This document shows, one piece after another, positions 2,080 through 45,827 of a DNA stretch of 47,768 bases. The stretch spans positions 1 to 47,768 of the forward strand of contig JAENRP010000334.1 in assembly GCA_024741835.1 (NCBI GenBank), in the 5' to 3' direction. Both the position numbers and the translations under genes were made by a program. Below the pieces are notes generated by a model. That model saw only the letters and a program-made list of their open reading frames with translations, ran no database searches and was not told the DNA's origin. The stretch is from Diplocarpon mali (Eukaryota > Ascomycota > Leotiomycetes > Helotiales > Drepanopezizaceae). The stretch's first letter is position 1. Each line of letters starts with the position of its first letter.

Positions 2080-3396
2080 TACCTTTAGGTTCCTTTATCT
2101 TCTATAATTTAAAGACATTTAATTAAGGCTAAGTGCTTCTTAGAGTTCTTTTATATTATAATTTCTATTTCCTTATTATTATTCAAATCTTTAAAGGCAA
2201 CTGGGATATGCTTTCTTAGCACTTTGTTAAAGCGTTTAGTTAAACTAAATAGGTCTTTAAATATAAGGTTAATTTGCTAAGCTATAATATTCTCTATAGC
2301 TTTCTCTATTGCGGTTGAACTAGTGTATTTATTAATGAATTTCTTTTATTTTAATATCTATCTCTTTTGCTTAAGGTCAGAGGTTTATATAATAACTTCG
2401 ACTTCTTAATCTTTAAGCTTAGAGCTATCTTTATCTATTATATCTCTAATTAATTCGTCTACTATATCGGCTTTATCCTTATTTATTATAGTTTTAAATT
2501 ATTAGGTGTCTTTTAGCATTTGGACTTTATATTAAGATTCCTAAGTTGTATATATTAATTTCTAGACTTTAGCTGGTTTTATTAGTATTAAAGGAGTGGT
2601 AGATCTAGAAGGATACTAAGTATTCTAAGGGTTTCTAGATATAGAAGTAGCATTAATATTAGCAGATATATTACTATTAACCTACTTTAAAATAGAAATA
2701 CCTTTAACTTTAATAGCAGTCTAGTTCGAAGTTTAGTTAATAAGTACTCCCTTAGGTAGATTATTAGCTAGACTTATATATATATAAGTTAAGACCTTAA
2801 AGTTGATTTCGATAATGCGCTTCTATTTGGCCAAATCCTTATCCTACTTTATATTATATATTATTATTCGAATAGTTTATAGCTATAAATGATTCTAGTG
2901 TTTTTTAATAAGAATAGCATCTGGCCTAGGATCTTTAATATAAAGCATCTTATACTTATTAATATATATGACCTTAGTATTAATAAAATGAAGGAAAAGA
3001 GGGCAATTGTTGCGGTACTTATATAGAGTATAATTAGGTTCTTTATTATTGTAAAAGTTATAGGTTAATTGTCTTCTATTGCTATTTCCTTAGTATCTTA
3101 TAGCATTAATATTAGTAGAGTGCTAGTTAGGATTAATTCCTCCTTCTTTAGTTAGCTATTATATTCTTATATTAGCTAGTTATTCTAAATGATAAGAAGT
3201 AGGAGTCTGGTAATAGGAACTATTAGGTTAGCTTATAATAGCTGAGTTTTATCTATTACTAAACTAGGGAATATGCTATTTTTCTTATAAGAGATTATTA
3301 ATCCTAGTTTTTAAGCTTTGGATTTAGAGTTCTATAAATTAAGTCTTAAGTTCCTTAATTCTAGGGTTAGATCTTACTCTTAGGTTAGGCCTGCGA
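2080..3396 (-). pseudogene. Gypsy copy D: internal gag-protease fragment
   Basis: This stretch is collinear with 29951-31266 of copy B in the same orientation. It covers roughly gag residue 247 onward into the segment before the protease, including the zinc-cluster region. It carries independent RIP-type differences from B. Both ends are insertion junctions: the copia LTR begins at 2079, and the 5' LTR of copy A begins at 3397. The cut at 3396 falls inside palindrome site P2, two bases short of its end. No frame remains open and the rest of element D is not in the window. Confidence 0.82.
3376..3396. repeat. Palindrome P2 (copy D), interrupted
   Basis: This holds the first 21 of 23 bases of the gag palindrome. 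The last two bases are lost where copy A's LTR starts at 3397. Compare the complete sites at 5323 and 31247. Confidence 0.7.
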
Positions 3397-3641
3397 TATA
3401 GAGACCTAGGACGGATAGGTCTTATGATATATATCATATGATCGGCGCAGGACGGTAGGAGGATAAAAGGGCTATCTTCTATATATAGAAATAGCGCGTG
3501 TCGCTATAGTACTGAATATACCCTATACTTAGGACTTGTTCTTAATATTATATCTAAGAGAGCCTGCTTATAGTGCTTCCTCCTCTTGTTTTTAAGTCTT
3601 CCTTTAGGCCTATTCTTATATTATCTCCCTTCTGTTTTATA
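3397..3641 (+). repeat. 5' LTR of copy A (245 bp)
   Basis: It is the same length as the three other LTRs in the window. It starts TATAGAGACC and ends GTTTTATA. Family LTRs normally start TG and end CA, so I infer TG-to-TA and CA-to-TA changes by RIP. Borders were set by comparing all four LTRs and their different flanks. Confidence 0.85.
3479..3488 (+). promoter_or_regulatory. Candidate TATA box in the LTR
   Basis: CTATATATAG lies about 80 bp inside the LTR and is conserved in all four LTRs. Its place fits a U3 promoter, but short AT motifs are common in this DNA, so the call is tentative. Confidence 0.3.
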
Positions 3642-3642
3642 T

Positions 3643-3660
3643 TAGTGACTTACGCAGGGA
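3643..3660 (+). other. Candidate primer-binding site, copy A
   Basis: One base after the LTR end the sequence reads TAGTGACTTACGCAGGGA. A primer-binding site usually starts TGG; TAG is its expected RIP product. Copy B has the same site (TAGTAACTTATATAAGGA). I cannot name the tRNA. Confidence 0.4.
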
Positions 3661-4584
3661 CCGATTTCTTAAGATTTCCGTCCTTATATAACCTTATCGA
3701 TCTCTTAGTTCGTAGATAAAAGACCGGCCTTTGAAATACGTCTTTAAAACACTTATAGCATCTTGATCAACTTTAAAAACCTTATCCTTAATTGCTTAGT
3801 TACTTGGAATTGTCGATTTTCGTTTAGCAACTATTAATAACCTTAGATTTTCCCTTTTCGGCTCTGCTTTGAAAACCCCTATTTTCTTCCTTAACTTTGA
3901 GATTTTCGGAATTTTCGGCTTCTTAGTATAAAAAGTTTGGCGAATCCTATAATAGTAATCTTAAATAGTAGTAGTTTTAAGTACTTAAGTAATACTAAGC
4001 GCAAACTCCAATTGGAAGTGTTTCCTTAGAATCTTTAGAAATCCGAATCTGATAATTCAGCTGCCTCGGCTTAATAGAACTTTAAAAACTGCCTTAGAAT
4101 TATCTCTAAAGACCCTTTTATTCTAAGGACTAATAGGAATTGGCCTAAAGGTTAAGAAGAATCTTAAATATAAACCTTATCTTAGAAATTTATCTTAAAT
4201 TAAGTAAACCTTATCTTATTGCAATTAATTATAACGCTCCTATTAGCTATTTAGCACCTACTTAGAATCTCTTAGCAAACTCAAATTAAACTTTTAATAG
4301 AATCCGGAATTCTACTCCTAAGCCTAGCCTATAAGTAGGAGGATAAAAAGACATCTTTAAATAACTTAAGGCCGCTACTTACTTTTTTAATATCGATATT
4401 AGAAAATATTAAAAATAATATTAATTTTAAACTTTTCGCTAACCCTTTATCTAAATCTTTTCAAACTCGTCTTAGTTACTTTAAGATTAACTTAGATTTT
4501 AAACGTTTTTTAAGCCCTTTTGAATTTCGAAGTACTCCTTTTAGTAACTAATTATACGATATTAAGGCTTCCCCTTTGCCTTCT
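3661..4584 (+). other. Leader between LTR and gag, copy A
   Basis: About 0.9 kb holds no frame I can support as a gene. It contains palindrome P1. Copy B has the matching stretch at 32008-32931. Presumed 5' UTR and packaging region. Confidence 0.6.
4314..4336. repeat. Palindrome P1 (copy A, leader)
   Basis: A 23-nt quasi-palindrome in the untranslated leader, ACTCCTAAGCC / A / GCCTATAAGT type. It is one of two sites outside coding frames. Confidence 0.75.
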
Positions 4585-5322
4585 ATGGATTTTATCAACT
4601 TAGACGGTTAGTATGAAACGATGATAGCCGCATTTAAGGCTATTACTAGCCACTTTCCCCTTCCTAGTTCCCTTAGTGCTCCTTACTTTATAGGAGCTAA
4701 TATTACTGATTTCCTTAAGTAATATAAGGAAACTTGTTACGATTTTAGTATTCTATAAGTAGATATGATTTCTTAGCTCCTTTACTACTATAATTATATA
4801 AGTAGAGATATTATTAAATCCCTCCTTAAATAGAAGATGTATAATTTATAGGAACTCCTTATTAAGGCTCTTAAGTTTAAATTCTAAGAATTTGATAGAT
4901 AGTAGATTCGCGATACTCTAGCTTTCTTAAAAGAATTTGTTTTAGTCACTTGAACTCCTAAGGAACTTAAGAACTACTATCGGACTTTTACTTGTATATC
5001 AAATACCTTAATTAGCTAGAAAATACTTAGTAAAGTTGAATAAGGCCGCCTTTTCTTACTTAGATTACTTATTAGCCTTTAAAATAAGATTATTAAGTAT
5101 TTTAAGATCGATAAGTAAGACCTTATAACCTTTGCCTTATTTAAGGAATTCTTAGCCTTTGCTTTAAAATCAGATCTTAGTAAGAGAACTATTAATGCTA
5201 TAGAATAGGAAAAAGCCTTTACTTCCTCTTATACTAAAGACCTTAAGAGCCTGGTCTAAGAATACTCGAAAGCTTTAAAAGTTATAGAAGAGGCAAAGAA
5301 GAACCTAGTAGTTATACCTTTT

Positions 5323-5345
5323 ACTTATAGTCCTAACCTAAGAGT
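5323..5345. repeat. Palindrome P2 (copy A, gag)
   Basis: 23 nt, read in gag as T-Y-S-P-N-L-R-V at residue 247. The same residue number holds in copy B. Confidence 0.8.
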
Positions 5346-7067
5346 AAGATCCAACCTTAGAATTGAGGAACTTAAGACCTAATTTGTAGAACTTTAAATC
5401 TAGAGCTTAGAAACTTAGATTAATAATCTCTTATAGGAAAAATAGCATATTTTGCAATTTGGTAATAAGTAAAACTCAGCTATTATAAGCCAATTTAGTA
5501 GTTCCTATTACTAGACTCCTGCTTCTTATTATTCGGAATAATTAGCTAATATAAGAATGCAATAGCTGGCTAAAGAAGGAGGAATTGATCCTAACTAGCA
5601 CTCTGCTAATATTAATACTATAGGATACTAAGGAAACGGCAATAGAAGATAATTAACTTGCAACTTTTGTAATAATGAAGAACCTAACTGCGCTTTATAT
5701 AAGTATTGTAACGATTGCCCTCTTTTCCTTTGTTTTATTAATACTAGGGTTATATATATTAATAAGTATAGGATGCTTTATATTAAAGATCCTAGGCTAG
5801 AAGCTATCCCTATTAAAAAGTACTAGAATCGCTTATACTTATAGACTATTTGAATGATAATATATAGTATAAAATAGGACGAGAATTTGGTCGAACGATA
5901 GCATATTATAGAAATAAACGCTAAAATTCCAACTTATATATATATAGGTCTAATTAGCAACCTATTTAAGGGAGTTCTTAAAGAACTAGCTTCTGATTAA
6001 ATAGCTATAGAAGTTAAAGGCATCTCTATCTTAGGATAGGTTAATAATAATATTTTAGCTAATATTAATACTGCTTCTGTATTTAGGAACCCTCGGAATT
6101 CTTAGCGTCCTTTTAGATCTACTACTTCCTTAATACTAATAAAACTAGCCAAAGTCTAAAAATCAACGCATGCGACTTAGGAATCTTAGTATAGAGTCCA
6201 AATGCTAAAAGATACTTAATAATTTAAAACTATAGTAGATAAGGATAAAGCTAATATAGTAGACGATTTGATTAGAGATATAATAGATAAAGATAGTTTT
6301 AAGCTTAAAGATTAAAAAGTTAAAGTTATTATACGGACCCTTAACTTTAAATGAAAGAGACAGATATTAAAATAGGAAAAATTCGTTAATAAATACGCTA
6401 GTTTAACCGCAATAGAGAAAGCTATAGAGAATATTATAGCTTAGCAAATTAACCTTACGTTTAAAGACCTATTTAATTTGATTAGACGCTTTAATAAAGT
6501 GCTAAGAAAGTATATTCCAATTGCTTTTAAAGATTTGAATAATAATAAGGAAATGGAAATTATAATATAAAAGAACTTTAAGAAGCACTTAGCCTTAATT
6601 AAATGTCTTTAGATTATAAAAGACAAAGGAACCTAAAGGTACTACGATATTATAGCAATAGCTTTAATATCTTAGAATATCAATTGAAATTGTTTAGCAA
6701 TTGCGATAAAAAGCCCTATTGTTATTTATTCTATAAAAGAATTAATTAAAGTAAAGGCTCTAATTGATTATAATTCAGAAGTTAATGCAATAATTAGAAA
6801 AGTGGCGGAAATAGCTTAATTAATAATTATTAGCAATCGACTCTTTATTTATTCAACTATCTCTAGATCGAAATACAATTTTAATAGATAAGTGAAAAAC
6901 GTAAAGGTTAAAGTCAAAGGAATTATTAATTATATTAACTTTCTAATAATAGAGAATTCTTCAAATGATATTCTTTTAAGAATGCCCTTTATTTTAAAAT
7001 CTCAGCTAACATTTAACTATTTTAAAGATAGTCTTATAAAAGCTAGTCTTTAAAATATAGATCGATC

Positions 7068-7074
7068 TTTAAAA
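7068..7074 (+). promoter_or_regulatory. Candidate -1 ribosomal frameshift site
   Basis: The heptamer T TTA AAA is set in the gag-protease frame exactly as a canonical X-XXY-YYZ slippery site requires. A -1 slip leads into the RT frame (next codon AGG at 7074). Copy B has C TTA AAA at the same place. The frame change itself is present in both copies; only the choice of slip site is inference. Confidence 0.45.
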
Positions 7075-7238
7075 GGACAAATGGTTATTATAAGAGATAT
7101 AGCCGAATTCTAAAATAAGGTTTTAAGAAACGATTAGCTAATATAAGGGCTAGACTTAATGCTAATAAAGGAAGGCACTTAGCGAGAAGTTATAGTAAAA
7201 GAAAGGTAAGTTTGCTAATTTTAAATAATAGTAATTTG

Positions 7239-7261
7239 ACTCGCGGTCCTAGACTAAGAGT
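7239..7261. repeat. Palindrome P3 (copy A)
   Basis: 23 nt, read in pol as T-R-G-P-R-L-R-V at residue 56, between protease and RT. Confidence 0.8.
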
Positions 7262-7400
7262 TAAATCTGGAATTTTAAAAAATAGTACAATCGGCGTTTT
7301 ATCGGCTTAATAATTAAGAAAAAAGAAAAATAAGGTAGAGAAGAGAGTTCGTTTTACAAATTTCGATAATTCACTAATCATTTTAAAAAACCTAAAAACC

Positions 7401-7423
7401 ACTTATAGGCTAGACCTATAAGT
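7401..7423. repeat. Palindrome P4 (copy A)
   Basis: 23 nt with 10 of 11 arm positions paired: ACTTATAGGCT and its near-complement. Read in phase in pol at residue 110 as T-Y-R-L-D-L-(stop)-V. Confidence 0.8.
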
Positions 7424-9367
7424 GAAAAATAATAAAATTACTAATAATATTTCTATCTATATACTTTAAATTAACAACTTAGAAAATCTTTTATTTGTTT
7501 TTAAAAAGGAAAATTTGGACTATTTCATAGGATTTGATAAAAAAGGAAAGAAGTAAAGAAGCATAGTACTAGCTAATATTCGAACTATATATAAAAGCAA
7601 AGCTAATAAAGTACAACTAGTAAATTAAGGAATCTCTAATGGCTTAAAGCCTAAAGGATTAGATGATTGGTTTAAATAAGATAAGAAGCTTCGACCTTTA
7701 AAGCTAGGTGGCAAATTCGATAAGTTTATTATAGGCAGATTTTCTAATAAACCCATTGGATATCGGCTAATAAAAGAACATTTTAATATATTGAAAATTA
7801 AAGAAGACTTAATAGAGCAAGAATGCGAACTACTTTATAAAACCTTAATAAATTAAGAGGACGCTTTAGCTTTTGATTAGATAGAACTTAGCCAGATTTA
7901 AGAAGAGGTTACGCCTTATATTAAGATTAAGATAATACCTTATAAAGCCTAGTAAGAGAAAACATTTAGTATTTCTAAAGCTCTTTAAGAAAAAGTAATT
8001 GAAATGTTAAAGGATAGGCTAAAGTAAAGTGTTCTTAAGTTCTATAATAGCCTTTATAGGAATAAATAGTTCTTAATTGCTAAGAAAGAAAAGGGAATTT
8101 ACAGACTAATAATAGTAGTAGTAGAGATGAACCAAGTAACTATTAAGGATGCTAACGTTCCTTTAAATATAGATAAGTTCTTAAATGAATTTGTAGGATT
8201 AACCTATAGCTCTCTTATTAACTTCTTCTTTAGATATAACCAATTTATTCTTAATATTAAATCGAGAGATATAATAGCAATTTAAACCCCTCTTAGGCTA
8301 CTTTAAATAATAAGATTACCTTAAGGGGCTATAAATTCGATCGCTTAATTTATTTAAGTAATTTATAAGATACTAGTAGATTGCATACCTAATATTGCGC
8401 TCTCTTATATAAATAATATAAGAGTAAAAGGATTAAGATTATTCTATAACTATAAAGAAGTTCTCCTTAGTATATAACGATTTATAATAGAATACATTTA
8501 GAACCTAGACTAGGTGCTTATACAATTCGAAAGGGTAAAAGCAATAGTTAGTCTAAAGTTATAATACTATCTTCTATTAATGGAAATTGTTAGTTTTATT
8601 ACTGATTCTAATAGCCGAAGTCCTTAAAGGGCTAAAGTACTTAAAATCGATAAATAGAAGAGGTATAATAATATAGCAGAAGCTCGCGCGTTTATTAGCG
8701 TTATAGTATACTATTATATATAGATCAAGGATTTTGCTAAAAAGGCAGTACCTATTTATTCCTTATTTTAAAAAGGGGCTGAGTTTTAATAGGAGGAACC
8801 TTAAATAGAGGCTATAAAACAACTAAAGCAAGCGTTGCTTAAAGCGCTATATCTGATTAAAATAGACTATAGAGCTGACGCTAGGCCAATTATACTAATA
8901 GTTAATATAAGCTTAATCAGATAGGATACTATCCTTTAATAAGCTAATAGCTAGTAGAGAAGACATTTAGCTCGCTTTAAAAGTGGTCTTTAGAATCTAA
9001 TAGAGATAAAGTATAATACTATTAAATAGGAATATAAAGGAGCTTTAAAAGTAATAAAAAAGATAAGAAGCGACCTTTATAATACTTACTTTATCTTTGA
9101 AACTAATACTAAAGTACTAGTAGAACAATTGAATAAAGCTGCAAGCGACCTACCTAAAGCCTTACTAATAAAATGGATTACTTAAATAAGATTAATAGAC
9201 TTTGAAGTCAAATATATTTTAAGAATGAAAAATACTACTGCTAACGGCCTTTTAAAAAGAACTCGTCCCTACCCTTCTAATTTGATTAAAGAAGACGAAA
9301 TAGATATTAATAAGTAGGTAAAGAATAAAGTTAGTTATCTATCAATATATTGCCTTAAAGGGACTTG

Positions 9368-9390
9368 ACTTACAGTCCTGGCCTGCGAGT
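9368..9390. repeat. Palindrome P5 (copy A), different phase
   Basis: 23 nt at the RNase H-integrase junction. It is the only coding copy read in another phase: the pol frame gives L-T-V-L-A-C-E-S. The same phase is kept in B. Confidence 0.8.
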
Positions 9391-10802
9391 CAAATAAGAG
9401 AATTTTATTATCTAACTACTTAAGTGACTCTAAAGAAATCGCGAAATTTTTAATTATACTTAGATAATTAAAGATAGTTGCTCTTAAGGATTTTTAGAAA
9501 TTCAAAGCTAAAGTTCTGATTTATTTAATACAAGGAAGACGATTATTCAAAAGGAGCGATAACTTATTTCCTATATAGCTCTATTTAAATAATAACAAAC
9601 TGCGAGCTAAGGCTATTTAAGATATTTATAAGAAGACTGGCTACCGAGGAGCTAAGTCTACCTACTACTAACTCTTAAGGAAATTCTTTTAAAAGGGTTC
9701 TTTTAAAGACTGCAAAGCCTTTATAAAAAGTTGCGTCCCTTATTAGAAACGAAAACCTAATTATAAAGAGAATCCCTTATTCCTAACCTGGCTATTAGGC
9801 CTTTTCTATAAAGTCAATCTTAATATTATATAAGTACTAATAACTGAAAATAGGATTATATATTTTATTCTAGTAAAGGAAGACCTATTAGGATGGCCTA
9901 AAAGACGACCTTTGAGATTTACTAACTTTGAATCTATTGCAAAGTTCCTTTAGGAAGATGTGGTCTATTGCTATAGACTTTTTGGCAGATTAACTATTAA
10001 TAAAGGCTTTGAAAATAAAGGAGTGGTTAAAGCTTTTTTATAAAAATATAGTATTAAATAGGTTTAAATCTTAGCGTATAACTCAAAAGCTAATAGAATA
10101 GTAAAGCAAGGATATTGCGATATTTTAAATAGGCTATCTAAAGTTATCTATAGAGGATTTAAGAATTAGATAAAACACTTTTATAGAATACTCTTTGCTT
10201 ATCGAACGATAATCTATAAACCGACTAGAGTTATACTATTTTTCCTTATCTATAGTAGAAAGGCATAGCTCCCTTTTAAATCCTAATAGCCTATTTAAAG
10301 ATTGTTCGACTATAGTCAAATTTAGAACTGTTCTAATTTGCTAATAATAAGATGCCGATAACTTAAGCTTTAAGATATAGATATAGAGGAAATCATTTTA
10401 TAAAAGAAATGATATTAGGAAAAAGCTAAGGAAGCATAGGCTGCTTTTAAAGTACTTAAAATGCACTCTATTTAAAAAGATAATCTTGTCCTAGTCTACG
10501 ACGTTATAAGAAGTATTAATATATTAGCTAATACTAAATTTGACTATCGATAGCTTAGTCTATTTAAGGTTAAATCTAAGTAGAAAGAAAAAGGATACTA
10601 TTCTCTTTAGGAACTTAATAGAGTCGATATTAAAGGAACCTTTATAGCTAACTGACTAAAGCGCTTTTATTAATGCGACTAGACCTTATTCCTTTTAAAA
10701 GACGAATTAGAAATTGATATAACCTTTAAATCTTTTGCAAGAACTGACAGCGATATAAGCAACTTTAAACCCTTAGATAAAGACTAAGATTTTTCCAACT
10801 TA

Positions 10803-10825
10803 ACCTATAAGCCAATCTTACAAAT
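10803..10825. repeat. Palindrome P6 (copy A), degenerate
   Basis: Near the pol C-terminus, residue 1244; read as T-Y-K-P-I-L-Q-I. It is the most worn copy in element A, but B and C keep the arms. Confidence 0.65.
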
Positions 10826-10907
10826 AGAGAATATTAAAATACCTAACTAATCGCAACCTTAAGTTATTATTCTTAAAATATCTAAAGAATATAGATAGGA
10901 ATATTAA

Positions 10908-11219
10908 ACGATTTCCTAGCCTATCAATTGTCTTACCTTCCTTTAATTCTTATTTTTACATTTTTAGCAAAGTCGCCTCCTTTATTATTTAAGATATGGA
11001 TCTTTTAGGATTACTTTAAATTCTTACTTGCTCTAACTTATTTTGCATTCTTAATATTAGCCTTTAATTATAGCATTCCTATTACTTTCCTTAAATAATA
11101 AATAAAAAGTCCAATTTCCTTAATATATATATAGTAAACCTATTGTAGCTTATATGCCCTTTTAATTCTTATACCCTATTGAAATCTCTTATTTATACTC
11201 CCTATCTTTTATAAGCAAT
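10908..11219 (+). other. Spacer between pol and ORF3, copy A
   Basis: 312 bp with no supported gene; very AT-rich with a TATATATATA run at about 11124. The same spacer lies at 25372-25684 and 43976-44287. It could hold a promoter or a reinitiation signal for ORF3, but I see no decisive motif. Confidence 0.5.
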
Positions 11220-12065
11220 ATGCCTTTAAAGAACTTATAAATGGTTTTATCTACTGCGATAAGGGATAAATAAGTATTAATTATAAACTTCTCTTAGAAC
11301 AGCAGAGCTATTGTATTGTTAAAGAGCTTTAAGTCGACCTACGTAGCCTTAGGAGATATAGAGTAATAAAAACTCCTTTTAGCTTATGCGAATGCTATTA
11401 ATAACCTTTTAACCTAAGTAGCCTTTGGAATTCTCTAATTTAATAACTTCTTAACTGAAGAATTAAGACTAAAGGGAATTTCTAAAGAGGAGTTCTTAGC
11501 CGACGCAGATTAATACATAACCTTGGCCGATACTTTTAGAATAGACTAAGATAAAAGAGAAGAATCTATTTAATAATTGGATAATTTAGCCATTAATAAA
11601 AGAGGATTCCTATTTCATTTGCGCTTTCTGATAAATATTGATTCTAATAATAGAAGATGAGTATTATTAAAAATTCTTAAGGAAAACACTCCTATTGCTA
11701 GAGCTATTTAGATTCTTAATTTCTTTATCATTTAAAAAGGAGTAGTAAAATTCTAAGGCAATCGAATTTATAGTTGCAGATTTATAGGCCTATTTAATGT
11801 AGTACTTATAGCAGCTAATAGGGCTATAAAAAGATCAAATTAAGCTATAGATATTATCTTACTTAATAGTACTATTATTAATATGCTAAGGCTTTGCGCT
11901 TTTGCTTACAGTTTGCTTCTTTTAAAAGAAAACTGGACTCTTATACTAGAGTTTGGATAAGATTTCTTTAATAATAAAGAAGAGAATTAGTTATTTATAG
12001 TTAAGCCTGCCTTAAAATTCGCCTCTTAGCTTAAAGATATAATAAGTGCTAAACTATATAATTTA

Positions 12066-12088
12066 ACTTACGGTCCTAAACTAAGAGT
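12066..12088. repeat. Palindrome P7 (copy A, ORF3)
   Basis: Residue 283 of ORF3, T-Y-G-P-K-L-R-V. Matches P10 at residue 297 of ORF4. Confidence 0.8.
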
Positions 12089-13451
12089 TAGAAATAAGAA
12101 TTTTAAAACTGGACCTAACCTGCCTTTTATTAAAATGATTTTAAAAACCGCAGCTAAATAGATTGCTTAAACGCTTAGCGCAGCCTCTTTAGAATTTTCA
12201 AAATCTTTAAAGGACTCTCCTTTAGCTAAATAACCAATTTTAGCTTAACCTTTAAGAAGGATGAATCGTTTAATAGCTACCTTGGCTAATTTGCAATTTG
12301 AAACTAAAGGATTGCGCGCTCGCTTAGACTCCTTCTTTAATAACTTAAAGGAGCTAGTTCTTAACTTTTTTATATTTATATATAACTACTTTAAAAACGA
12401 TAATATAAGGAAAGACCCTATTCCTACTGCTTTAAAGATAATTAAAAGAGCTATTAGATAGATTTAATAGCTTATCTTAGATAAGTTCGCTTTTATAGAT
12501 ATTATTCAATTCTTTAATAATTATAAAAGTCAAGAACCTAGTCTCTCGGATGCTAAGCGAGACTATTTTATCTTATAAGAAAGAGAATATAAGGAGGAAT
12601 CTATTGATTAGGACATTTGTAATTATAGCAATATGCCTTAATCGGTTATTCTCAACCTTAAGCTTAAAGAACGATATAATATTCAAGTGTCTTCTGCTAT
12701 AAAAACTCGCTTTCGATAGTATCTTCCTAGCGTAAGAATCGAAGGGAAAAGACTTTACGACCTTTATATTCGCTCTCTTTCGGTTTACTATAGCTTTAAT
12801 TATAAAGGATTTGATATTAATAAAACTATTAAATACCTTAAACTTTTATACGCAATAGAAGATATTGATCTTTTTTTAATCCACCTTAATAATTAGTTCT
12901 TTATCTCTTTAAGGATACGCAAATCCAACCTATTAATAATAGAAGCATCTTTAGGTACTATAAAATTTAAGGCTGATCCTAAAGCCTTAAAAGCATTAAA
13001 GCTAATTGAATAGAATAATTCCTTCTTATCGATATTATTGAATAATAAATAGCAGGAGGAAATAGAAGAAGAAGGGTCAATTGTAATGCCTGAACCCTTC
13101 GGATGCCGCTTCTTAACCGATAATTTTACTATTAATAATAGTGCTTTTATAGGTATATTCCTCTCTATTATAAGATAAGAAGTAGAGATGTATCTTTATC
13201 ACTTCTGCCTTATAGATAGCGCAACCTTTATACCTTCTTATTTTCTTTATAATATGATATTTAGTCTTACTTAATAAGTCCTTCAAATATACTATAGACT
13301 TTACCTCTTAGCTATAATAGTAAGAAGTAGAGGAACCTATCAGCTTATAGCCTACCCCGAACCTCCTTAATTGATTAGCCTTAGTCTTTATAATTAAGTT
13401 GTTTTAATAAAAAGAGATGCAAGTACTGCTAATAAAGAAATTCCGATTTTT

Positions 13452-13474
13452 ACTTGCGGTCCTGGCCTACGAGT
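13452..13474. repeat. Palindrome P8 (copy A, ORF3)
   Basis: Residue 745 of ORF3, T-C-G-P-G-L-R-V; one of the best preserved. Matches P12 at residue 769 of ORF4. Confidence 0.85.
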
Positions 13475-14336
13475 CAATTTTATTAGAAAGCAAGTCTTAG
13501 ATTATCAGATCCTACTAATTAGATAAGGGCTAGCTTTTGAAAGCCTTAATAGGTAGGTCGGCTCTTAATCGAATGTGAAACTTACTCTATCTGCGAAGAA
13601 GATAAGTCGATAGACTTCTTAGGCACTTGGTTCAAAATCTTAATTAGCTTAAATGATTATAAAATTAAAGCGAAAGGAGATCTTGCGACCTATTACTAAT
13701 AATAGCAATCTAATTATAGTAATAATGAAATAAGGATATCTTCTTAAAATGCTTTTAGATAATTCTTATAGAACTGGTGGTTTTATAGCCTTTTGCAATA
13801 ATTATATAGCTATCTGCAATAAGAATACCTTAGAAAATGAAATTCAAATCTTCAATCTTATCTTTTCAGTCTCTGCTTTAAAGCAACCCTTAGTACTTTA
13901 ATAGATTAATGCAAGTAGAACTACTGCACCTTTCAAGGCAGCTTTTTATCTTAAAAACTGCGGCAGCCTCTTTGAAGCTATTATTAGTCGACGCTCTTAG
14001 ATAAACCTATTAGTTATAATTGAAGTATAGGAGTTGTTTCTTTTTAATAAAGACGAATTGAAAATACATTTTGTAAAATATAATTAGGAACTCTTTAATG
14101 CCTTTATTAAGGCCTGGACGAATATTATAAATACTAAATCGCTTCTTTATAAACTTAAGTCTTAAGGATAATGCGATAAAGTAAATGCTATCTGAGAGCC
14201 TAATGTACTAATTAATAAAGATATTATTGCAAGAAAATTCGGAAAAGAGATAAGCCGTAATACTAGTATAGTACTAAACCCTGATTTAGGAACTAATCTC
14301 CTGTTTTTACCCTTAAGCTTAGAGACGCTAAGACTG

Positions 14337-14359
14337 ACTTGCGAGCCTGGCCCGCGAGT
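14337..14359. repeat. Palindrome P9 (copy A, ORF3)
   Basis: Residue 1040 of ORF3, T-C-E-P-G-P-R-V; GC-rich with arms largely intact. Matches P13 at residue 1043 of ORF4. Confidence 0.85.
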
Positions 14360-14537
14360 AAGGTTGGACTCGGCCAGCTTTAGCCTATAAGATAGTTCAA
14401 ATGAACTTTGGCTACTAAATCTAGGAGTACTAATAGAAGATCCTTTAAGAGAGGTCCCTAAAGCTGAAAAATCACTAAGAAGCAAGAACTAACGCAAGAG
14501 AAGAAGACTCCGAAGTGATAATAAAACCGATAATTAA

Positions 14538-17419: not shown

Positions 17420-17453
17420 CAGTCCTCTTAATAATAGAACTATTGACTACTAT

Positions 17454-32949: not shown

Positions 32950-32950
32950 A

Positions 32951-35776: not shown

Positions 35777-36056
35777 GTCATATAATCACTTAAAAATCAA
35801 TTTTCTAGCTAATACACTATGCTGAATATCTTTTGCTTAGTCATTGTCGAGACTAACGAGTAGCGACAGAAAATGTGGGAAGCAAGGGAGGTGGTTGGTT
35901 CTGAGAAGCAAGGTTGTATTTCTCAAGAGTGGTTGTACCACAAAAAGTAATTATATATATAGTGGGTTTATGCCTAAGGCATCTGCTAACTACTCTACGC
36001 TAGTAGTCCATATCTTTTACTCCCTTTATCATCTGCGAAACCTCGGAGAGTAATAA

Positions 36057-36301
36057 TATAAAACAGAAGGGGGACAACATAAGAATAGGCCTAAGGAAAG
36101 ACCTAAAACAAAAGGAGGAAGCACCACAAGCGGGCTCTCCTGGATAAGATATTAGGAATAAGTCCTAAGTATAGAGTATATTTAGTACTTATAGCAATAT
36201 GCGCTATCTCTATATATAAAAGATGGCCCTTTTATCTTCCTACTATCCTACGCCAATTATATAATATATATTATAAGACCTATCTATCTTAGGTCTTTAT
36301 A
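36057..36301 (-). repeat. 3' LTR of copy C (245 bp)
   Basis: Same borders and length as the other LTRs; flank to the left is unmutated island DNA ending GAGAGTAATAA. Confidence 0.85.
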
Positions 36302-36497
36302 TATATCTTAAATAATAAAAGTAATAGCCTCTACTACTATTAGTAAAGAATATAAAACAATATAAGTTAAGGCAATAGTATATCAATTACTAGCAAACCC
36401 TTAAGTATAAGAAAACTAATATATTAAAAGGCCTAAACTAAGGCTATATTATTATTAAAGGTAAAAGAAAAAGAAAAAAAAAGAAGAGTTTTTTTTT

Positions 36498-36534
36498 NNN
36501 NNNNNNNNNNNNNNNNNNNNNNNNNNNNNNNNNN
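36498..36534. other. Assembly gap (37 N)
   Basis: Begins inside a run of T and ends inside palindrome P14, at the same place in the element as the gap in copy B. Confidence 0.95.
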
Positions 36535-36547
36535 TAGGCCTAGGAGT
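36535..36547. repeat. Palindrome P14 (copy C), half lost in gap
   Basis: Only the right arm, TAGGCCTAGGAGT, is present after the N run. Confidence 0.65.
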
Positions 36548-36949
36548 TAGAAAACGAAACTAGCAAAACAAATAAATAAGCTATAGAGTTATAAAAACAA
36601 TTAAAAATAGTACTAACTTAGATATCAATTTTCTTTAGTTCTCTTTAAAAGATAAGGAGAACTATTATTAGATAATACTCTTTTTATAAAGCGCCTACTT
36701 CTTCTTAATAATTTACTATTAGTATTAAAAGAGTCTAGTCTTAATATTATAAGAGCTTTAGTATTTTATAAAGATGCTAGTATAGTTTAATAGCTTCTAC
36801 CGATAGGGAGGGAGACTTATATTATAGTATTATTATTATCATCTTCTTTATTATTATAATTATCTTTTAAAGAGTCTTCTACTATAAAGGGGGATAAGGC
36901 AGGCAATTTAATAGATAATACTTCCTTTTCTTTACCTTTAGTTGATATA

Positions 36950-36972
36950 AGTTATAGGCTAGGCCTAGGAGT
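36950..36972. repeat. Palindrome P13 (copy C, ORF4)
   Basis: AGTTATAGGCT / A / GGCCTAGGAGT, residue 1043. Confidence 0.8.
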
Positions 36973-37771
36973 TATATTAGAGGGTTTAGTATAAGGTTTC
37001 TTAATGCTATACTTTTTAAGAAGGATTGTCTTATTAATTATATTATTAGCCTTAATATTATTATTAGTGCCTTTTGTCTTAGTCTAGGACTTATCCCTAT
37101 ATAGTTATAGCTCTAATTATTAAATCAGCTTTTAAGTATAAGTGAAATTATTAAAAAGTTCCTACTTATGCTTCTTTAGATATATTATCAATTGAGTCAT
37201 ATCTTTAAAGAATAACTCCTTTACTATTATTACTATTAATAGATCGTTCTATAGCTATTTCCCTATAAGTGCCTTTAATAGTAGGCCTCCTTTTATTATA
37301 TTAAGTATTATATGAAATTTGGCTAACGATTCTCTAGTAATACTCTATCTTATAGTGCTAGGTCTCTTTATACTAATAGAATCGATAAGAAAATCTTTTA
37401 AGTCTATGCTATTCTCTAATAAGTTATTACTAACAACTTCTATATAATTATTACTAATAGTAAGAAAGCCACCTTTTCCTAGTTCTTTAGCAGATTCTAT
37501 ATTAATAAACGTGCCTTATCTAGTAAATATAGAGAATAGAGTTGTCTTATTAGAGATATACTCCTTTAAAAGTATCTTCTCTTTAATATTCAATTCTTTT
37601 TATTATACTGCATTTTAAGCTAGATTTAGTAAGATCTATTAAGTATTCTTAAGGCGTTAGGGTATAAGATTTGATAATTTATAGGATTTTTCCTAAATAG
37701 CGTATTCTCTAGTCGATTGTTTAGCTGCTAAAATCATATAGTAGTCAATAGTTCTATTATTAAGTGGATTA

Positions 37772-37794
37772 ACCTGCGAGCTAGGCCTAAGAGT
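37772..37794. repeat. Palindrome P12 (copy C, ORF4)
   Basis: Residue 769 of ORF4. Confidence 0.8.
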
Positions 37795-39001
37795 CAATCT
37801 TATAAATCTTATATTAATATTAATCTTAATAGTAATAACTCTTAAGTAGTAGTTAATTCTAATAAACTATATAGGCTTAGGATACGTTACTAGTTTATAT
37901 AAAGACTTATATCAAGTTAGTAAAGCACTTAAGTATAATCTATAATGCATCCTTAGTATCTATTATATTAAGCTATAAGTCATATTATAAAAGTAGGCAA
38001 AGGGGGGGTTTGGCTTCTTATCTAAGGTCTAGAAGTAGTATTAGTATATTTCTAATTCTTCTTATACTAATATCAAAAATGAATTCTTTTTACAATTACT
38101 ATAACCATACGTGCGTATAATACTTAAAAAGGCGCAGCTAAACAACTTAAGTATATTTAAAAAGCCTTTGCTATAGAATAATATAAAGTTATCAATAGTC
38201 AGTATAGCATTATACTAAGCAAGGGTCTATGCGATATTATAGAACAATTTAAAGGCTTTAAGTGCTACTTTAAACTTAAAGAAGCCTAATAATACATCCT
38301 TCTTAACTTAGCTTGCTATTCTATTGCCGGTAGCTATAATTGCATAATTTCCTAAATATAATAAAAATAAGGTTAGGTCAAAAGCGGTATAAAATTTATA
38401 GATATTAGATAATATATCTTTATTAGTAAGGCCTATTGTTACTAATCCATAGTACTGCGTATATTAGCGTTTATAAAGGGCGTAGAACTTTTCAAAATTA
38501 AAGTCCTTAAATATTCCTATTATAAACTTTGTAAGTCTTATCTTCATTTCTAATATTACTACTATTTTAAAACTATTGCTATACTACAGTATCATCTTTA
38601 TATTAAAGGGGACCTAATAATATTCTATAAAGATAATATTTATATTGACTTTGGATTTCTCCTTAAGAATATAGAAGTCACCCTTCAATTTCTTATGCTT
38701 AATAAAGAATTATATAATATTATCTATAGAAAATTCGTCTTATAGCAGTTTTATAATCTGCTTAATAGCTCTTATCGTCCCTTCTTATGCTAATAAGACT
38801 TCTCCCTAACCTTCTTTTCTCAAACGCTTTATTATTAACTTATAGAATTTAAAAACAAATTTTTATAGGTTATTAGGGAAAGATTGTATAATATCGGCGG
38901 TATCCTTCTTAGTATTATTAAAAATTTCTAGCACATTAGTAATAGTGCCTATTTCTTTATTAGACAATTCATCTTCTAAGTCTATAATATCACATATATT
39001 A

Positions 39002-39024
39002 ACCTATAAGCCGGGCCCGCGAGT
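39002..39024. repeat. Palindrome P11 (copy C, ORF4)
   Basis: ACCTATAAGCC / G / GGCCCGCGAGT, residue 359. Confidence 0.8.
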
Positions 39025-39187
39025 CATTTTCTTTACTACTAGTATTTAAGGTATTTAAGGCATTTCTAAGGATAGTGACTTAAATTCGTCTGAGTTAAAG
39101 GAATAGTGGTCAGGCAGGTCAGCTGCTTAAGTTCCTAGTATTATAGGCACCTCTGGCTTAAGGACATTCTCCTTATATACTAATTCT

Positions 39188-39210
39188 ACTTATAGACTAG
39201 GCCTATGAGT
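39188..39210. repeat. Palindrome P10 (copy C, ORF4)
   Basis: Residue 297 of ORF4. Confidence 0.8.
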
Positions 39211-40098
39211 CAAATTCTCCTTATCAGTTATTCCTATAAAGGGTAGCAGCATTTTTAAAGTAATAGGGATAATAAACTCCTATCTCTCTAACTTATTATT
39301 AAAGTAATTTATAATATACTTAGTAAGATAAGTCATCTTTTCTTTTATAATAAGTAGATTATATTACAACTATTAGAGGCTAAGTATATCTAGAATAGTT
39401 TGATTAGAAAGTGTAAAATTATTATACTATAAGGGTTCATCTTTTATAGTCTAAATAGTAGAATGCATAATAGTACTTAAGAACTTAACAAATTTTCTAC
39501 CTCTAATGCTATTTCCTTGCAGCTTTTTCATACCTTTTTAAATAGTGAAATGATTTAATACCTATATAGCCTTTGCTATAGGTTAGTATATCTTAAAGAT
39601 TTTGCTAAGCCCTTGCAGGGCGTTATTAGCAGTAATATTAGTCATAAAGTAGGTCTGGAAAAGTGTACTATAAGTGCTACTTATAAATTGCAATAATCTT
39701 TTCATATACTTATTCTTCTTATCTCGATTTTTCTAAAACAAATCTATTGAATTAGTATACTCTTAATATTCCTATAGAAATTTTTCACAATCAATCCCTT
39801 TTATCTTAAGCTTATTCTTAAGAAAATCATCAAAGTCTAAAAATCCTTCTTCTATAGTAGAAATTCTATAGTTTAATACTTTTATAAATGAGTTTAGGAA
39901 TACTTGCTATTCTATTTCACCTAATGTTCTATAAGTACTTACTATATCTTCTAATGATCTTAGAGCTTTTCTATCCTATAAAAAGTTACCCTTTAATATT
40001 AGTTTATTATTGGCAGTATTCAAGGGTTTACTGCCTAAAGCTATAACTGATATATTCTTCTTAGGTATAGCTCTCTTGCTTAAGCTCGGTAGTACTAT

Positions 40099-40660
40099 AA
40101 TGAATTATTTAATAAGGAGAGGGTAGTTCTAAATAAAGAGATAATTATTTAAAAAAGATTAACAATATAAGAGGCTTATATTAGAAAAGATTAATAATAA
40201 AAGACAATAGTAGTAGTACTAGTATTATAAGTCTAGTAGGGTTATAGAAAAAGTAAAAAAGTAAAATCGTAGTGCAAGGAGAGGCTTATTTATAAAGTTT
40301 GAAATCGCGCTAATGCACAAAGGAAAAGTAGGTATAATAAGCTTGGAAGTAGGAATAAAAGTAGGGTATAATATATATAAGGACCTATAATTAGTAAATA
40401 ACAATTATCAAAGGTAAGGAAGACATTTTAAAGGTAAGCATTAGAAAGTTATATATAAAGGGAATAATTAAAGAATGAATTATATAAAGAGTAAAGTAAA
40501 TAAAGAATATATATAGAATAGAATAATAGGTTAAGAATAAAGAGGTATAAGTATATAGAAAGTAGATAATCCTTAAAAAATTCAACTTCTAATTTACAAT
40601 CTCTTTAAATGGTTTTTAAAGAGGAAGGTAGTAGACTCGATTCTCTAAGCTTAAGTCGAC
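40099..40660 (-). other. Spacer between ORF3 and ORF4, copy C
   Basis: 562 bp, no supported gene; matches 14538-15092. The minus-strand open stretch at 40391-40585 is low-complexity and not conserved as a frame. Confidence 0.5.
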
Positions 40661-40838
40661 TTAATTATCAATTCTATTATTACTTTAGAATCTTCTTTTC
40701 TTATATTAGTTCTCATTTCTCAGCGATTTCTTAGCTTTAAGGACCTCTTTTAAAGGATCTTCTATTAGTACCCTTAGATTTAGTAACTAAGGTTCATCCG
40801 AACTATCTTATAGGCTTAAGCCAGCCGAGTCTAACCTC

Positions 40839-40861
40839 ACTCGTAGGCCAGGCTCGCGAGT
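40839..40861. repeat. Palindrome P9 (copy C, ORF3)
   Basis: Residue 1039 of this copy of ORF3. Confidence 0.85.
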
Positions 40862-41723
40862 CAGTCTTGGCGTTTCTAAGCTTAAGGGTAAAAACAAAGG
40901 ATTAGTTCTTAAATTAGGGTCTAATACTATACTAGCGTCTTAGTTTATCTCTTTTCCGAATTTTCTTATAATAATACCTTTATCAATTAGTGCATTAGGC
41001 TCTTAAATAGCATTTACTTTATCGCATTATCCTTAAGACTTAAGTCTATAAAAAAGCGACTTAGTATTTATAATATTTGTCTAGGCCTTAATAAAGGCGT
41101 TAAAGAGTTTTTAATTATATTCTATAAGGTAGATTTTCAATTTGTCCTTATTAAGAAGGAATAACTCCTATACTTTAGTTATAATAGAAGGATCTATTTA
41201 AGAGCGCTAACTAATAATAGCTTTAAAGAGGCTGCCGCAGTTCTTAAGATGAAAAGCTACCTTAAAAGGTGCAGCGGTTCTACTTATATTAATCTATTAA
41301 AGCATTAGAGGTTGCTTTAAAGCAAAGATTGAAAAGATAAGATCAGAGATTCGAGTCTTATTTTCTAAGGTATTCTTATCGCAAATAGCTATATAGTTAT
41401 TATAAAAGGCTATAAAGCTATCAATTCTATAAAGTTTATCTAAATGCATTTTAAGAAGGTACCCTTATTTTATTATTACTATAATAGGGTTACTATTATT
41501 AGTAATAGGTCGTAAGATCTCTTTTTACTTCATTTTTATAATTATATAAGCTAGCTAAGATTTTAAACCAAGTGCCTAAGAAGTCTATCGACTTATCTTC
41601 TTTATAGATAAAGTGAGTTTTATATTCGATTAAGAGCCGACCTACCTATTAAGGCTTTTAAAAGATAGCCCTTATTTAATCGGTAGGATCTAATAATCTA
41701 AGACTTGCTTTTTAATAAAATTG

Positions 41724-41746
41724 ACTCGTAGACTAGAACTGCAAGT
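41724..41746. repeat. Palindrome P8 (copy C, ORF3)
   Basis: Residue 744 of this copy; worn arms. Confidence 0.75.
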
Positions 41747-43109
41747 GAAAATCGGAATTTCTTTATTAATAGTACTTATATCCCTCTTTATTAAAACGAC
41801 TTAATTATAAAGACCAAGGCCAATTAATTAAGGAGGTTCAAAGTAGGCTATAAGCTAATAGGCTCTTCTACTTTTCGCTATTATAGTTAAGAGGTAGAGT
41901 CTATAATGCATCTAAAGGACTTATTAAGTAAAACTAAATATTATATTATAAAGTAAATAAGAAGGTATAAAGGTCGCATTATCTATAAGGCGGAAGTGAT
42001 AAAGGTATATCTCTACTTTTTATCTTATAATAGAAAGGAATATACTTATAAAAGTATTATTATTAGTAGTAAAATTGTCGGTTAGGAAGCGGTATCCAAA
42101 GGGTTTAGGTATTATAATTGACTCTTCTTTCTCTATTTCCTTTTGCTATTTATTACTTAATAATATCGAAAAGAAAGAATTATTCTATTCAATTAGCTCT
42201 AATGCCTTTAAGGCTTTAGGATCAGCCCTGAATTTTATAGCACTTAAAGATGCTTCTATTATTAATAAGTTAGATTTGCGTATCCTTAAAGAGATAAAGA
42301 ACTAATTATTAAAGTAGATTAGAAAAAGATCAATATCTTCTATTATATAAAGAAGTTTAAAGTATTTAATAGTTTCGTTAATATTAAATCCTTTATAATT
42401 AAGACTATAGTAAACCGAAAGAGAGCGAATATAAAGGTCGCAAAGTCTTTTCCCTTCGATTCCTACGCTAAGAAGATACTATTAAAAGCGAGTCTTTATT
42501 ATAAAGGATACTTAAATATTATATCATTCTTTAAGCTTAAAGTTAAGAATGACCGATTAAAGTATATTACTATAATTACAAATGTTTTAATTAATAGATT
42601 CCTTTTCGCATTCTCTTTCTTATAAGATAAAATAGTCTTACTTAGCATTTAAAAGACTAGGTTCTTAACTTCTATAATTATTAAAGAATTAAATAATATC
42701 TATAAGGGCGAACTCGTTTAAGATAAGCTATTAAATCTATTTAATAGCTCTCTTAGTTATCTCTAAAGCAATAGGAATAAGGTCTTCCTTTATATTATTG
42801 TTTTTAAAATAGTTATATATAAATATAAAGAAGTTAAGAATTAGCTCCTTTAAATTATTAAAAAAGGAGTTTAAGTGAGCGTATAATCCTTTGGTTTCAA
42901 ATTGCAAATCAGCTAAGGTAGCTATTAAACGATCTATCCTTTTTAAAGGTTAAGCTAAAATAGGTTATTTAGCTAAAGGAAAGTCCTTTAAAGATTCCGA
43001 AAATTCTAAAGAGACTGCGCTAAGCGTTTAGGCAATTTATTCGGCAGCAGTTTTTAAAATCATTTTAGTAAAAGGCAAGTTAGGTCCAGTTTCAAAATTC
43101 TCATTTCTA

Positions 43110-43132
43110 ACTCTTAGTTTAAGACTGTAAGT
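43110..43132. repeat. Palindrome P7 (copy C, ORF3)
   Basis: Residue 282 of this copy; worn arms. Confidence 0.7.
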
Positions 43133-43975
43133 CAAATTATATAGTTTAGCACTTATTATATCTTTAAGTTAAGAAGCGAATTTCAAAGTAGGCTTAATTA
43201 TAAATAACTAATTCCCTTCTTTATTATTAAAGAAATCTTATCTAAACCCTAGTATAAGAGTCCAATTCTCTTTTAAAATAAGCAAACTATAAGCAGAAGT
43301 GCAAAGCCTTAGTATATTAATAATAGTACTATTAAGTAGGGTAATATCTATAGCCTAATTTGATCTTTTTATAGTCCTATCAGCTGCTATAAATACTGCA
43401 TTAGATAAGCCTACAAATCTGCGATTGCGAATTCGATTGCCTTAGAATTTTACTACTCCTTCTTAAATAATAAAGAAATTAAGAATCTATATAACTCTAG
43501 CTATAAGAGTATTTTCCTTAAGAATTTTTAATAATACTTGCCTTCTATTATTAGAATTAATATTTATTAGGAAGCGTGAACGAAATAAGAGTCCTCTCTT
43601 ATTAATAGCTAAATTATCTAATTATCGAATAAATTCTTCCCTTTTATCTTAGTCCATTTTGAAAGTGTTAGCTAAAATTATATATTAATCTATATCTGCT
43701 AAGAATTCCTCTTTAGAGATTCCCTTCAATCTTAATTCTTCAGTTAGGAAGTCGTCAAATTAAAGAATTCTAAGGGCTACTTAGGTTAAAAGGTTATTAA
43801 TAGCATTTGCGTAAGCTAAAAGGAGTTTTTATTACTTTATATCTCCTAAGGCTGCGTAGGTCGATTTAAAGTTCTCTAATAATATAATAGCTCTGCTATC
43901 CTAAGAGAAGTTTATAACTAGTGCTTATTCATCCCCTATTGCAGATAAAACCATTTATGAGTTCTTTAAAGGCAT

Positions 43976-44287
43976 ATTACTTATAAAAGATAGGGAGTAT
44001 AAATGAGAAAGTTCAATAGGGTATAAGAATTAAAAGGGCATATAAGCTATAATAGGTTTGCTATATATATATTAAGGAAATTGGACTTTTTATTTATTAT
44101 TTAAGGAAAGTAATAAGAATGCTATAATTAAAGGCTAATATTAAGAATATAAAATAAGTCAAAGTAAATAAGAATTTAAAGTAATCTTAAAAGATCTATA
44201 TCTTAAATAATAAAGGAGGCGACTTTACTAAAAATGTAAAAATAAGGATTAAAAGAAGGTAGGACAATTGATAAGCTAGGAAATCGT
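43976..44287 (-). other. Spacer between pol and ORF3, copy C
   Basis: 312 bp, no gene seen; matches 10908-11219. Confidence 0.5.
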
Positions 44288-44369
44288 TTAATATTCCTAT
44301 CTGCATTCTTTAGATATTTTAAGAATAATGACTTAAGGTTATAATTAGTTAGGTATTTTAATATTCTTT

Positions 44370-44392
44370 ACTTGCAAGACCGGCTTATAAGT
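44370..44392. repeat. Palindrome P6 (copy C)
   Basis: Near the pol C-terminus; read as T-Y-K-P-V-L-Q-V. Confidence 0.8.
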
Positions 44393-45804
44393 TAAGTTGG
44401 AAAAATCTTAGTCTTTATTTAAGGGTTTAAAATTGCTTATATCGCTGTCAGTTCTTATAAAAGATTCGGAGGTTATATCAATTTCTAATTCGTCTTCTAA
44501 AGGGAATAAGGTTTAATTGCATTAATAAAAGCGCTTTAATCAGTTAGCTGCAAAGGTTCCTTTAATATCGACTCTATTAAGTTCCTAAAGAGAATAGTAT
44601 CCCTTTTCTTTTTACTTAAACTTAACCTTAAATAGACTAAGCTATTAATAGTTAAGTTTAATATCTGCTAATATATTAATACTTTTTATAATATTATAAA
44701 CTAGGATAAGATTATCTTTTCAAATAGAGTGCGTTTTAAATACTTTAAAAGTAGCCTATGCTTCCTTAGCTTTTTCCTAATATCGTTTCTTTTGTAAAAG
44801 GATTTCCTCTATATCTATATTTTAAAGCTTAAGTTATTAGCATCTTATTATAAGTAAATCAAAACGGTTTTAAATTTGATTATAGTCGAATAATCTTTAA
44901 ATAGGCTATTAGGATTTAAAAGAGAGCTATGCCTCTCTACTATAGATAAAGAAAAATAGTATAACTCTAGTTGGTTTATAAATTATCGTTCGATAAGTAA
45001 AGAGTATTTTATAAAAGTATTTTATCTAATTCTTAAATCCTTTATAAGTAACTTTAGATAGTCTATTAAAAATATTGCAATATCCTTGCTCTACTATTCT
45101 ATTAACTTTTAAGTTATATACTAAGATTTGAACCCGTTTAATACCATATTTTTATAAAAAAGCTTTAACTACTCCTTTATTTTTAAAGCCTCTATTAATA
45201 GTTAGTCTGCTAAAAAGTCCATAGCAATAGACTACGTCTTCTTAAAGGAACTTTATAATAGATTCAAAGTTAGCAGATCTTAATAGTCGTCCTTTAGGCC
45301 ATCTTAATAGGTCTTCCTTTATTAGAATAAAATATATAATCCTATTTTCAATTATTAATACTTATATAATATTAAGACTGACTTTATAAAAAAGGCCTAA
45401 TAGCTAGGTTAAGAATAAGGGATTCTTTTTATAATTAGGTTTTCATTTCTAATAAAGGATGCAACTTTTTATAAAGGCTTTGCAGTCCTTAAAAGAACCC
45501 TTTTAAAAGAATTTCCTTAAAAGTTAGTAGTAGGTAGACTTAGCTCCTTAGTAGCCAGTTTCCTTATAAATATCCTAGATAGCCTTAGCCTTTAGTTTTT
45601 CATTATTTAAGCAAAGTCGTATAAGAAATAAATTATCGCTCCTTTTAAACAATTATCTTTCTTATATTAAATAAATCAAAGCTTTAGCTTTGAATTTCTA
45701 AAAATCTTTAAAAGCAACTATCTTTAATTGTTTAAGTGTAATTAAAAATTTTGCGATTTCTTTAAAGTCACTTAAGTAATTAAGTGATAAAATTCTCTTA
45801 TTTA

Positions 45805-45827
45805 ACTTATAGGCTAGGCTTGCGAGT
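45805..45827. repeat. Palindrome P5 (copy C), different phase
   Basis: RNase H-integrase junction, same shifted phase as in A and B. Confidence 0.8.

Follow-up and report, generated by a model that had tools for sequence, protein, structure and literature searches.

The 47,768-nt contig JAENRP010000334.1 of the fungus Diplocarpon mali (assembly GCA_024741835.1), which we analyzed over its whole length and refer to as the window, contains copies of G1, a gypsy-like long terminal repeat (LTR) retrotransposon that carries a short palindromic module with a 23-nt core at recurring positions. The same module is present in a second gypsy-like family (G2) and two copia families (C1 and C2) of this genome. 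It occupies coding sequence, an LTR-like stretch, and places without a clearly open frame. It recurs across families, prefers one reading frame, changes in tandem number between copies, and decays by repeat-induced point mutation (RIP). On balance, we think it probable that the module is a micro-insert that has been copied among several LTR retrotransposon families, has multiplied passively with them, and is tolerated in linkers. An earlier note on this DNA had presented the motif as a property of one gypsy element, a description that is too narrow given its genome-wide occurrence in several element families.

Module sites recur between element copies

A pattern scan of the whole window returned 21 sites at up to seven mismatches from ACTTGCGGGCC-N-GGCCCGCAAGT, while no site at that threshold appeared in three successive base-shuffled versions of the window, one of which had two at eight mismatches. 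The 14 positions of copy B were carried over to copies A and C and to fragment D by means of the flanking sequence, which located all 14 in copy B. Copy A had 12 of them and copy C 9, and fragment D had a single broken one (Table 1). Copy C extends past the window end, and four copy-B positions have no counterpart there to compare. The recurrence described in the earlier note is therefore confirmed, as are its counts for A, B, and D; of the ten sites it gave for copy C we could place nine; the tenth would lie beside an assembly gap. The site at 15981 in copy A is a perfect palindrome as claimed (11/11 pairs), and the same site is also perfect in the genome stretches L006, L011, and L014 but imperfect in the remaining copies. 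The proposal that a palindrome sits inside every gene of the element holds only in part: sites 10803 and 13452 lack a clearly open frame on either strand.

The module is abundant in the genome and resides in four retrotransposon families

Across the assembly (49,369,952 bases in 676 contigs), the degenerate pattern ACYYVYRRKYC-N-GRMYYRBRRGT matched 5,559 times at up to one mismatch, compared to 7 matches for the reversed-pattern control at the same threshold, so that the whole-genome search suggested in the earlier note puts the motif far above chance. The little-mutated form ACTCSCGGKCCNGGMCCGSGAGT matched 208 times at up to one mismatch and its reversed form not at all. The little-mutated core had no exact match in prokaryote (GTDB) or viral contig collections. 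Sites adjoin LTR retrotransposon domains on many contigs. Among the zero-mismatch matches listed, which run to the eighth contig, sites were found on contigs 1, 4, 6, 7, and 8 (our C1, C4, C6, C7, and C8) and none is listed for C2, C3, and C5; those listed for the first contig all fall within 398,024 to 522,786 of its 560,066 bases. This clustering fits a restriction to repeat islands, though some sites may lie in host genes. Depending on the clustering rule, the sites fall into 28 (228 sites), 30 (205 sites), or 42 distinct flanking contexts, the 228-site set being drawn from the window and sampled genome stretches. In this set, and in a further set of 183 sites, a few sites are counted twice where L043 and L049 overlap.

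G1 has the ∼250-nt direct repeats and the integrase domain of a Ty3/gypsy element, with PF17921 (Integrase_H2C2) matched in copies A and B. The single reverse transcriptase-like piece examined (L024, 479 to 730) had no Pfam match, and its assignment was made by eye, as were all domain names beyond the Pfam matches. In G2 (L008), Pfam identified RVT_1, Integrase_H2C2, and SH3_Tf2-1. A scan of 20 pieces, 4 of which were not expected to hold the module, gave 3 that matched a family, all in L008. Both gypsy-like families have modules upstream of the integrase zinc domain. Modules of family C1 (L043 and L047 to L049, with an RVT_2 match) are found upstream of the reverse transcriptase, next to a DTG motif that we take to be the protease, and in a stretch that we call LTR-like because two copies of it flank inner C1 sites in L020. 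Family C2 (L053, L056, and L065, with L012 and L013 added by alignment; RVT_2) carries module arrays 5' of the reverse transcriptase. Both module orientations occur. Among 16 copia stretches of 2.5 to 2.7 kb, picked by eye from 150 scored of 1,082 candidates, 13 (about five families) had no detected module and the other 3 had an array.

In the LTR-like module context (L026, L027, L030, L031, L038, L039, and L041), T-runs vary and a TTAAGGGGTGATTT unit is repeated; this context resembles the coding sequence upstream of the C1 module.

Two arm types and decay by RIP

Little-mutated copies of the module read approximately ACTCCCGGKCCNGGMCCGCGAGT and combine two arm types, ACTCCCGGKCC (C type) and ACTCGCGGKCC (G type). 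Mutation at CpG converts the G-type arm to ACTTATAGGCC and the C-type arm to ACTCCTAGGCC, and both forms are common. By our count, 18 of the 22 defined bases of the little-mutated core are G or C, making this a short GC-rich palindrome in AT-rich DNA (the GC fraction of the window is 0.289). The window has a TpA/ApT ratio of 1.39, a sign of RIP, and a comparison of L024 with the window copies shows L024 cytosines read as T at 62% of CpA, 49% of CpG, 12% of CpC, and 20% of CpT. The GGCC core halves contain neither CpG nor CpA and stay conspicuous in the AT-rich surroundings. As for the site at 15981, whose perfection despite RIP the earlier note had singled out, CpG saturation turns two like (G-type) arms into ACTTATAGGCC, so a perfect palindrome is expected there and its symmetry needs no special cause.

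Among 1,080 exact-pattern sites genome-wide, 15 have two C-type arms (CC), 794 are mixed (CG, 414 and 380 in the two orders), and 271 have two G-type arms (GG), where independent arms would, by our arithmetic, give about 157, 510, and 413. The 183-site set has 1 CC, 105 CG, 74 GG, and 3 other sites. Since copies within a family are not independent, only the test by context is fair, and it is modest (17 CG, 11 GG, and 0 CC; exact P of 0.029). Such unequal arm types fit an asymmetric founder.

The module prefers one reading frame

In frame 1 the module encodes TPGPGPRV, and on the opposite strand it encodes TRGPGPGV. In a stop-codon test of 42 contexts, a clear frame was obtained in 17, representing about 11 separate places since several belong to one array, and it was frame 1 in all 17. 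Eight sites of the window family favor the same frame (Table 1). An in-frame palindrome in unrelated coding sequences is thus seen in several families. By our reading, the transversions often seen at core positions 9, 12, and 15 (of 23) affect the third position of frame 1 codons whichever strand is read, whereas the C/G difference between arm types at positions 5 and 19 exchanges proline for arginine and arginine for glycine.

Insert lengths change in steps of three nucleotides

In 13 window-family contexts, the flanks of 132 matched copies were all spaced by 23 nt, save one at 24 nt; the fourteenth context, beside an N gap, yielded no copies. Joined-flank probes at three G2 and C1 sites (40 of 284 and 40 of 171 candidates scored, source copies included) gave 72 sized copies with inserts of 23 (26 copies), 26 (1), 68 (7), 71 (8), 77 (19), 89 (6), 113 (3), 131 (1), and 19 nt (1), and 8 more copies that matched one flank only. 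The length equals 23 + 3n in 71 of the 72, the sole exception being 19 nt. The number of tandem modules therefore changes between copies. Modules in C2 arrays are spaced by 39 or 48 nt except for a single step of 90 nt, and L065 shows a loss between modules.

Successive protein searches gave one, none, and three outside homologues. Aligned with the C2 linker of L065, homologue P0004 shows two gaps, one of 9 residues at a single module and one of 22 residues that spans a second module and half of a third, although the placement of these gaps is uncertain, the C2 linker being weakly conserved. The module motif was not found in P0001 to P0004, of which P0001 and P0002 do not reach the linker. In the search for empty sites that the earlier note had proposed, P0004 is the only relative that looks empty; none turned up in this genome.

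A model for the spread of the module

We propose that, within one genome, a short GC-rich near-palindromic module was repeatedly copied into several families of LTR retrotransposons and would then have multiplied passively along with its host elements. Each site would have arisen by insertion or copying. In coding regions the module mostly occupies linkers between protein domains, which are probably where it is tolerated. Since either orientation stays open in the usual frame and adds a Gly/Pro-rich linker, the module may do little harm. A coding footprint must be a multiple of three, and the inserted unit may therefore measure 24 nt or slightly more. Tandem copies expand and contract through recombination between modules, and RIP mutates the copies at CpG and CpA. 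As for the copying route, recombination or template switching between elements would be the simplest, because the module arrays visibly recombine.

Of the two readings offered by the earlier note, a tiny parasitic repeat is the better, extended from one gypsy element to several LTR retrotransposon families. In its boldest form, which we entertain only tentatively, the module would be a palindromic parasite of retrotransposons that hitchhikes between copia and gypsy elements as they replicate, and might be the smallest mobile sequence in a eukaryotic nuclear genome that codes for protein. Such a parasite could enter in either orientation, stay open, and contribute a harmless Gly/Pro linker, because it is near-symmetric and the third codon positions of its two strands coincide.

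Several observations weigh against the copied micro-insert. Empty sites were absent from the 72 sized copies at the three G2 and C1 sites and from the 132 flank-matched copies of the 13 window-family contexts, and neither a target-site duplication nor an inverted flank stood up. Of the 25 contexts that lack a clear frame, 14 scored best in frame 1, 6 in frame 2, and 5 in frame 3, and site 9368, 5' of the integrase zinc domain, favors frame 2. The genome-wide arm-type counts are not independent, the families being multicopy, and homologue P0003 has a linker of similar length from which the alignment did not isolate the modules.

Target-site duplications were sought in two ways. An initial screen picked out 7 of 320 offset-length combinations, and a scored test over 49 offsets at each of three word lengths, in which the weak context at L053 1462 was omitted and L024 5946 added by hand, had a best uncorrected P of 0.0095, which we take as not significant. 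The duplication that would mark a miniature inverted-repeat transposable element was thus not seen in these tests. One DDE_1 match is present in the genome. An extended 35-nt palindrome was considered, the flank consensus RRWYY being symmetric, and was rejected as pairing per site at offsets 1 to 6 was no better than in shuffled flanks. Vertical inheritance from one ancestral element was likewise rejected as the whole story, since the contexts differ between copia and gypsy families.

Alternative explanations

The earlier note had also proposed a structural RNA or DNA signal, that is, a hairpin required by the elements. Folded against shuffles, five chosen sites gave z values of −3.36, 0.60, −2.67, −2.25, and −1.81; some sites therefore fold well, as any near-palindrome should, two are less convincing, and one of these does not fold better at all. 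Pairing between the flanks also rises above the shuffle mean at offsets 8 (13 versus 7.7 of 28) and 10 (14 versus 7.2), uncorrected for 12 offsets. Against this, the mirror pair 9/15 varies as under independence in the 183 sites (GG in 105, GT in 63, and TT in 15), with no compensatory change between the arms at this freely varying pair, and in the commonest form of the module the fifth pair is a mismatch (105 of 183 sites, and 794 of 1,080 genome-wide). With no covariation and a mismatched majority, a structural signal is not supported, and we regard it as highly improbable. A protein-binding site may suit the near-symmetric sequence with its variable center base. The palindrome would then bind a dimeric host or element protein, for example a zinc-cluster factor that recognizes an inverted CGG repeat, and would have been kept or created by selection in many LTR elements; the many sites per element and the occurrence of the module in the LTR-like stretch and at sites lacking a clearly open frame agree with such a role. 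A DNA-binding site should, however, show no preference among frames, yet 17 of 17 clear contexts share one; CC sites are scarce and mixed ones overrepresented (15 CC of 1,080; P of 0.029 by context), and 13 of the 16 copia stretches lack a detected module. This explanation seems unlikely.

Another alternative is that the peptide itself matters, as a Gly/Pro linker or a polyprotein processing spacer encoded by a coding minisatellite that was expanded and exchanged between elements by recombination. The location of sites in linkers, the transversions at third codon positions, the C2 spacings, and insert lengths that differ by multiples of three can all be read in this way. Yet the same DNA occurs in the LTR-like stretch and without a clearly open frame, the two orientations encode different peptides, one site is probably in frame 2, and several synonymous positions are nearly invariant apart from RIP-type change, so that we give this alternative a low probability.

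Relation to known palindromic repeats

The ultra-short invasive elements of Podospora mitochondria are reportedly very short repeats proposed to be mobile. The palindromic microsatellites of Fusarium mitochondria are likewise described, in the available part of the source, as very short repeats proposed to be mobile (PMC7218506). Unlike these mitochondrial elements, the module sits in LTR retrotransposons. The yeast mitochondrial GC clusters (GC42) are closer in being short, mobile GC palindromes in AT-rich DNA whose units merge and shuffle, and the part of that report available gives AG target-site nucleotides and cluster-free positions (PMC4478555); the fungal module has no supported target duplication, no empty site was seen, and it is located in LTR retrotransposons.

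Rickettsia palindromic elements (RPE), as the available part of PMC10969869 describes them, are ∼150-bp palindromic repeats that interrupt many unrelated genes without breaking the frame and so encode an additional peptide. The module resembles them in being a palindrome in frame within unrelated coding sequences but differs in its 23-nt core and, among the stretches examined, was seen only in retrotransposon sequence, whereas RPE occupy bacterial cellular genes. The core pattern has no exact match in GTDB contigs, a comparison that did not include the RPE sequences themselves. Mitochondrial genes of Nematomorpha also contain inverted repeats inside protein-coding sequence, theirs being long and perfect (up to 284 bp) according to the available part of PMC6649704. 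In-frame palindromic inserts (Rickettsia) and short GC palindromes (fungal mitochondria) are thus already described; among top-ranked entries of the open-licence literature, mostly titles and the starts of abstracts, none reported a module of this kind in LTR retrotransposons.

If the module does spread between copia and gypsy elements, it would preserve a natural trace of unrelated retrotransposons exchanging sequence and would show how polyprotein linkers can be rebuilt. It also calls for caution, as GC-rich cores that escape RIP may mimic conserved signals.

Features of the window

Table 1. Coordinates of G1 copies, integrase domains, and palindromic modules in the window
Feature	Position	Strand	Copy	Remarks
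G1 (LTR retrotransposon)	3396..17453	+	A	3' end cut by copy B; self-BLAST, 86% to 33196-19134
G1	17448..33196	-	B	∼15.7 kb; LTRs ∼250 nt; direct repeats 17448-17699 / 32945-33196, 88%
G1	36051..47768	-	C	runs past window end; 85% to copy B
PF17921 (Integrase_H2C2), integrase zinc-binding domain	9591..9761	+	A	3' of site 9368; Pfam
PF17921 (Integrase_H2C2), integrase zinc-binding domain	26831..27001	-	B	Pfam
Broken palindrome	3376..3398	-	D	interrupted by copy A start at 3396
Module	4314..4336	+	A	no clear frame
Module	5323..5345	+	A	no clear frame
Module	7239..7261	+	A	frame 1 favored
Module	7401..7423	+	A	frame 1 favored
Module	9368..9390	+	A	5' of integrase zinc domain; frame 2 favored
Module, degraded	10803..10825	+	A	without clearly open frame
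Module	12066..12088	+	A	frame 1 favored
Module	13452..13474	+	A	without clearly open frame; spacing 23 in 17/17 copies found
Module	14337..14359	+	A	frame 1 favored
Perfect 11-1-11 palindrome	15981..16003	+	A	frame 1 favored; both arms fully CpG-converted
Module	16167..16189	+	A	frame 1 favored
Module	17397..17419	+	A	frame 1 favored
Module	17927..17949	-	B	adjoins N gap
Module	18346..18368	-	B	frame 1 favored in window-family test, no clear frame in 42-context test
Module	19168..19190	-	B	flank mapping
Module	20398..20420	-	B	flank mapping
Module	20584..20606	-	B	flank mapping
Module	22232..22254	-	B	flank mapping
Module	23117..23139	-	B	flank mapping
Module	24503..24525	-	B	flank mapping
Module	25767..25789	-	B	flank mapping
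Module	27202..27224	-	B	flank mapping
Module	29169..29191	-	B	10/11 pairs
Module	29331..29353	-	B	flank mapping
Module	31247..31269	-	B	flank mapping
Module	32256..32278	-	B	flank mapping
Module	36950..36972	-	C	flank mapping
Module	37772..37794	-	C	flank mapping
Module	39002..39024	-	C	flank mapping
Module	39188..39210	-	C	flank mapping
Module	40839..40861	-	C	flank mapping
Module	41724..41746	-	C	flank mapping
Module	43110..43132	-	C	flank mapping
Module	44370..44392	-	C	flank mapping
Module	45805..45827	-	C	flank mapping

The insertion of copy A at 3396 falls inside the palindrome of fragment D. The palindrome was considered as an integration target and rejected, this being just one insertion inside a palindrome among the element ends compared; of the other ends, the flank at L012 7995 starts with letters resembling half a site and the rest do not.

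In copy A, a region of over 7 kb downstream of the integrase zinc domain (9762 to 17447) shows open-frame signals, and the L024 pieces matching this region of G1 had no Pfam match. Contigs C102, C200, C498, and C38 have long stop-free frames around Integrase_H2C2, alongside a RIP-mutated majority. The end of another repeat (window 1 to 2077) meets G1 sequence at about 2077, and the same repeat end in L012 (2905 to 4981) meets G1 at a different position, 18 nt from a palindrome.

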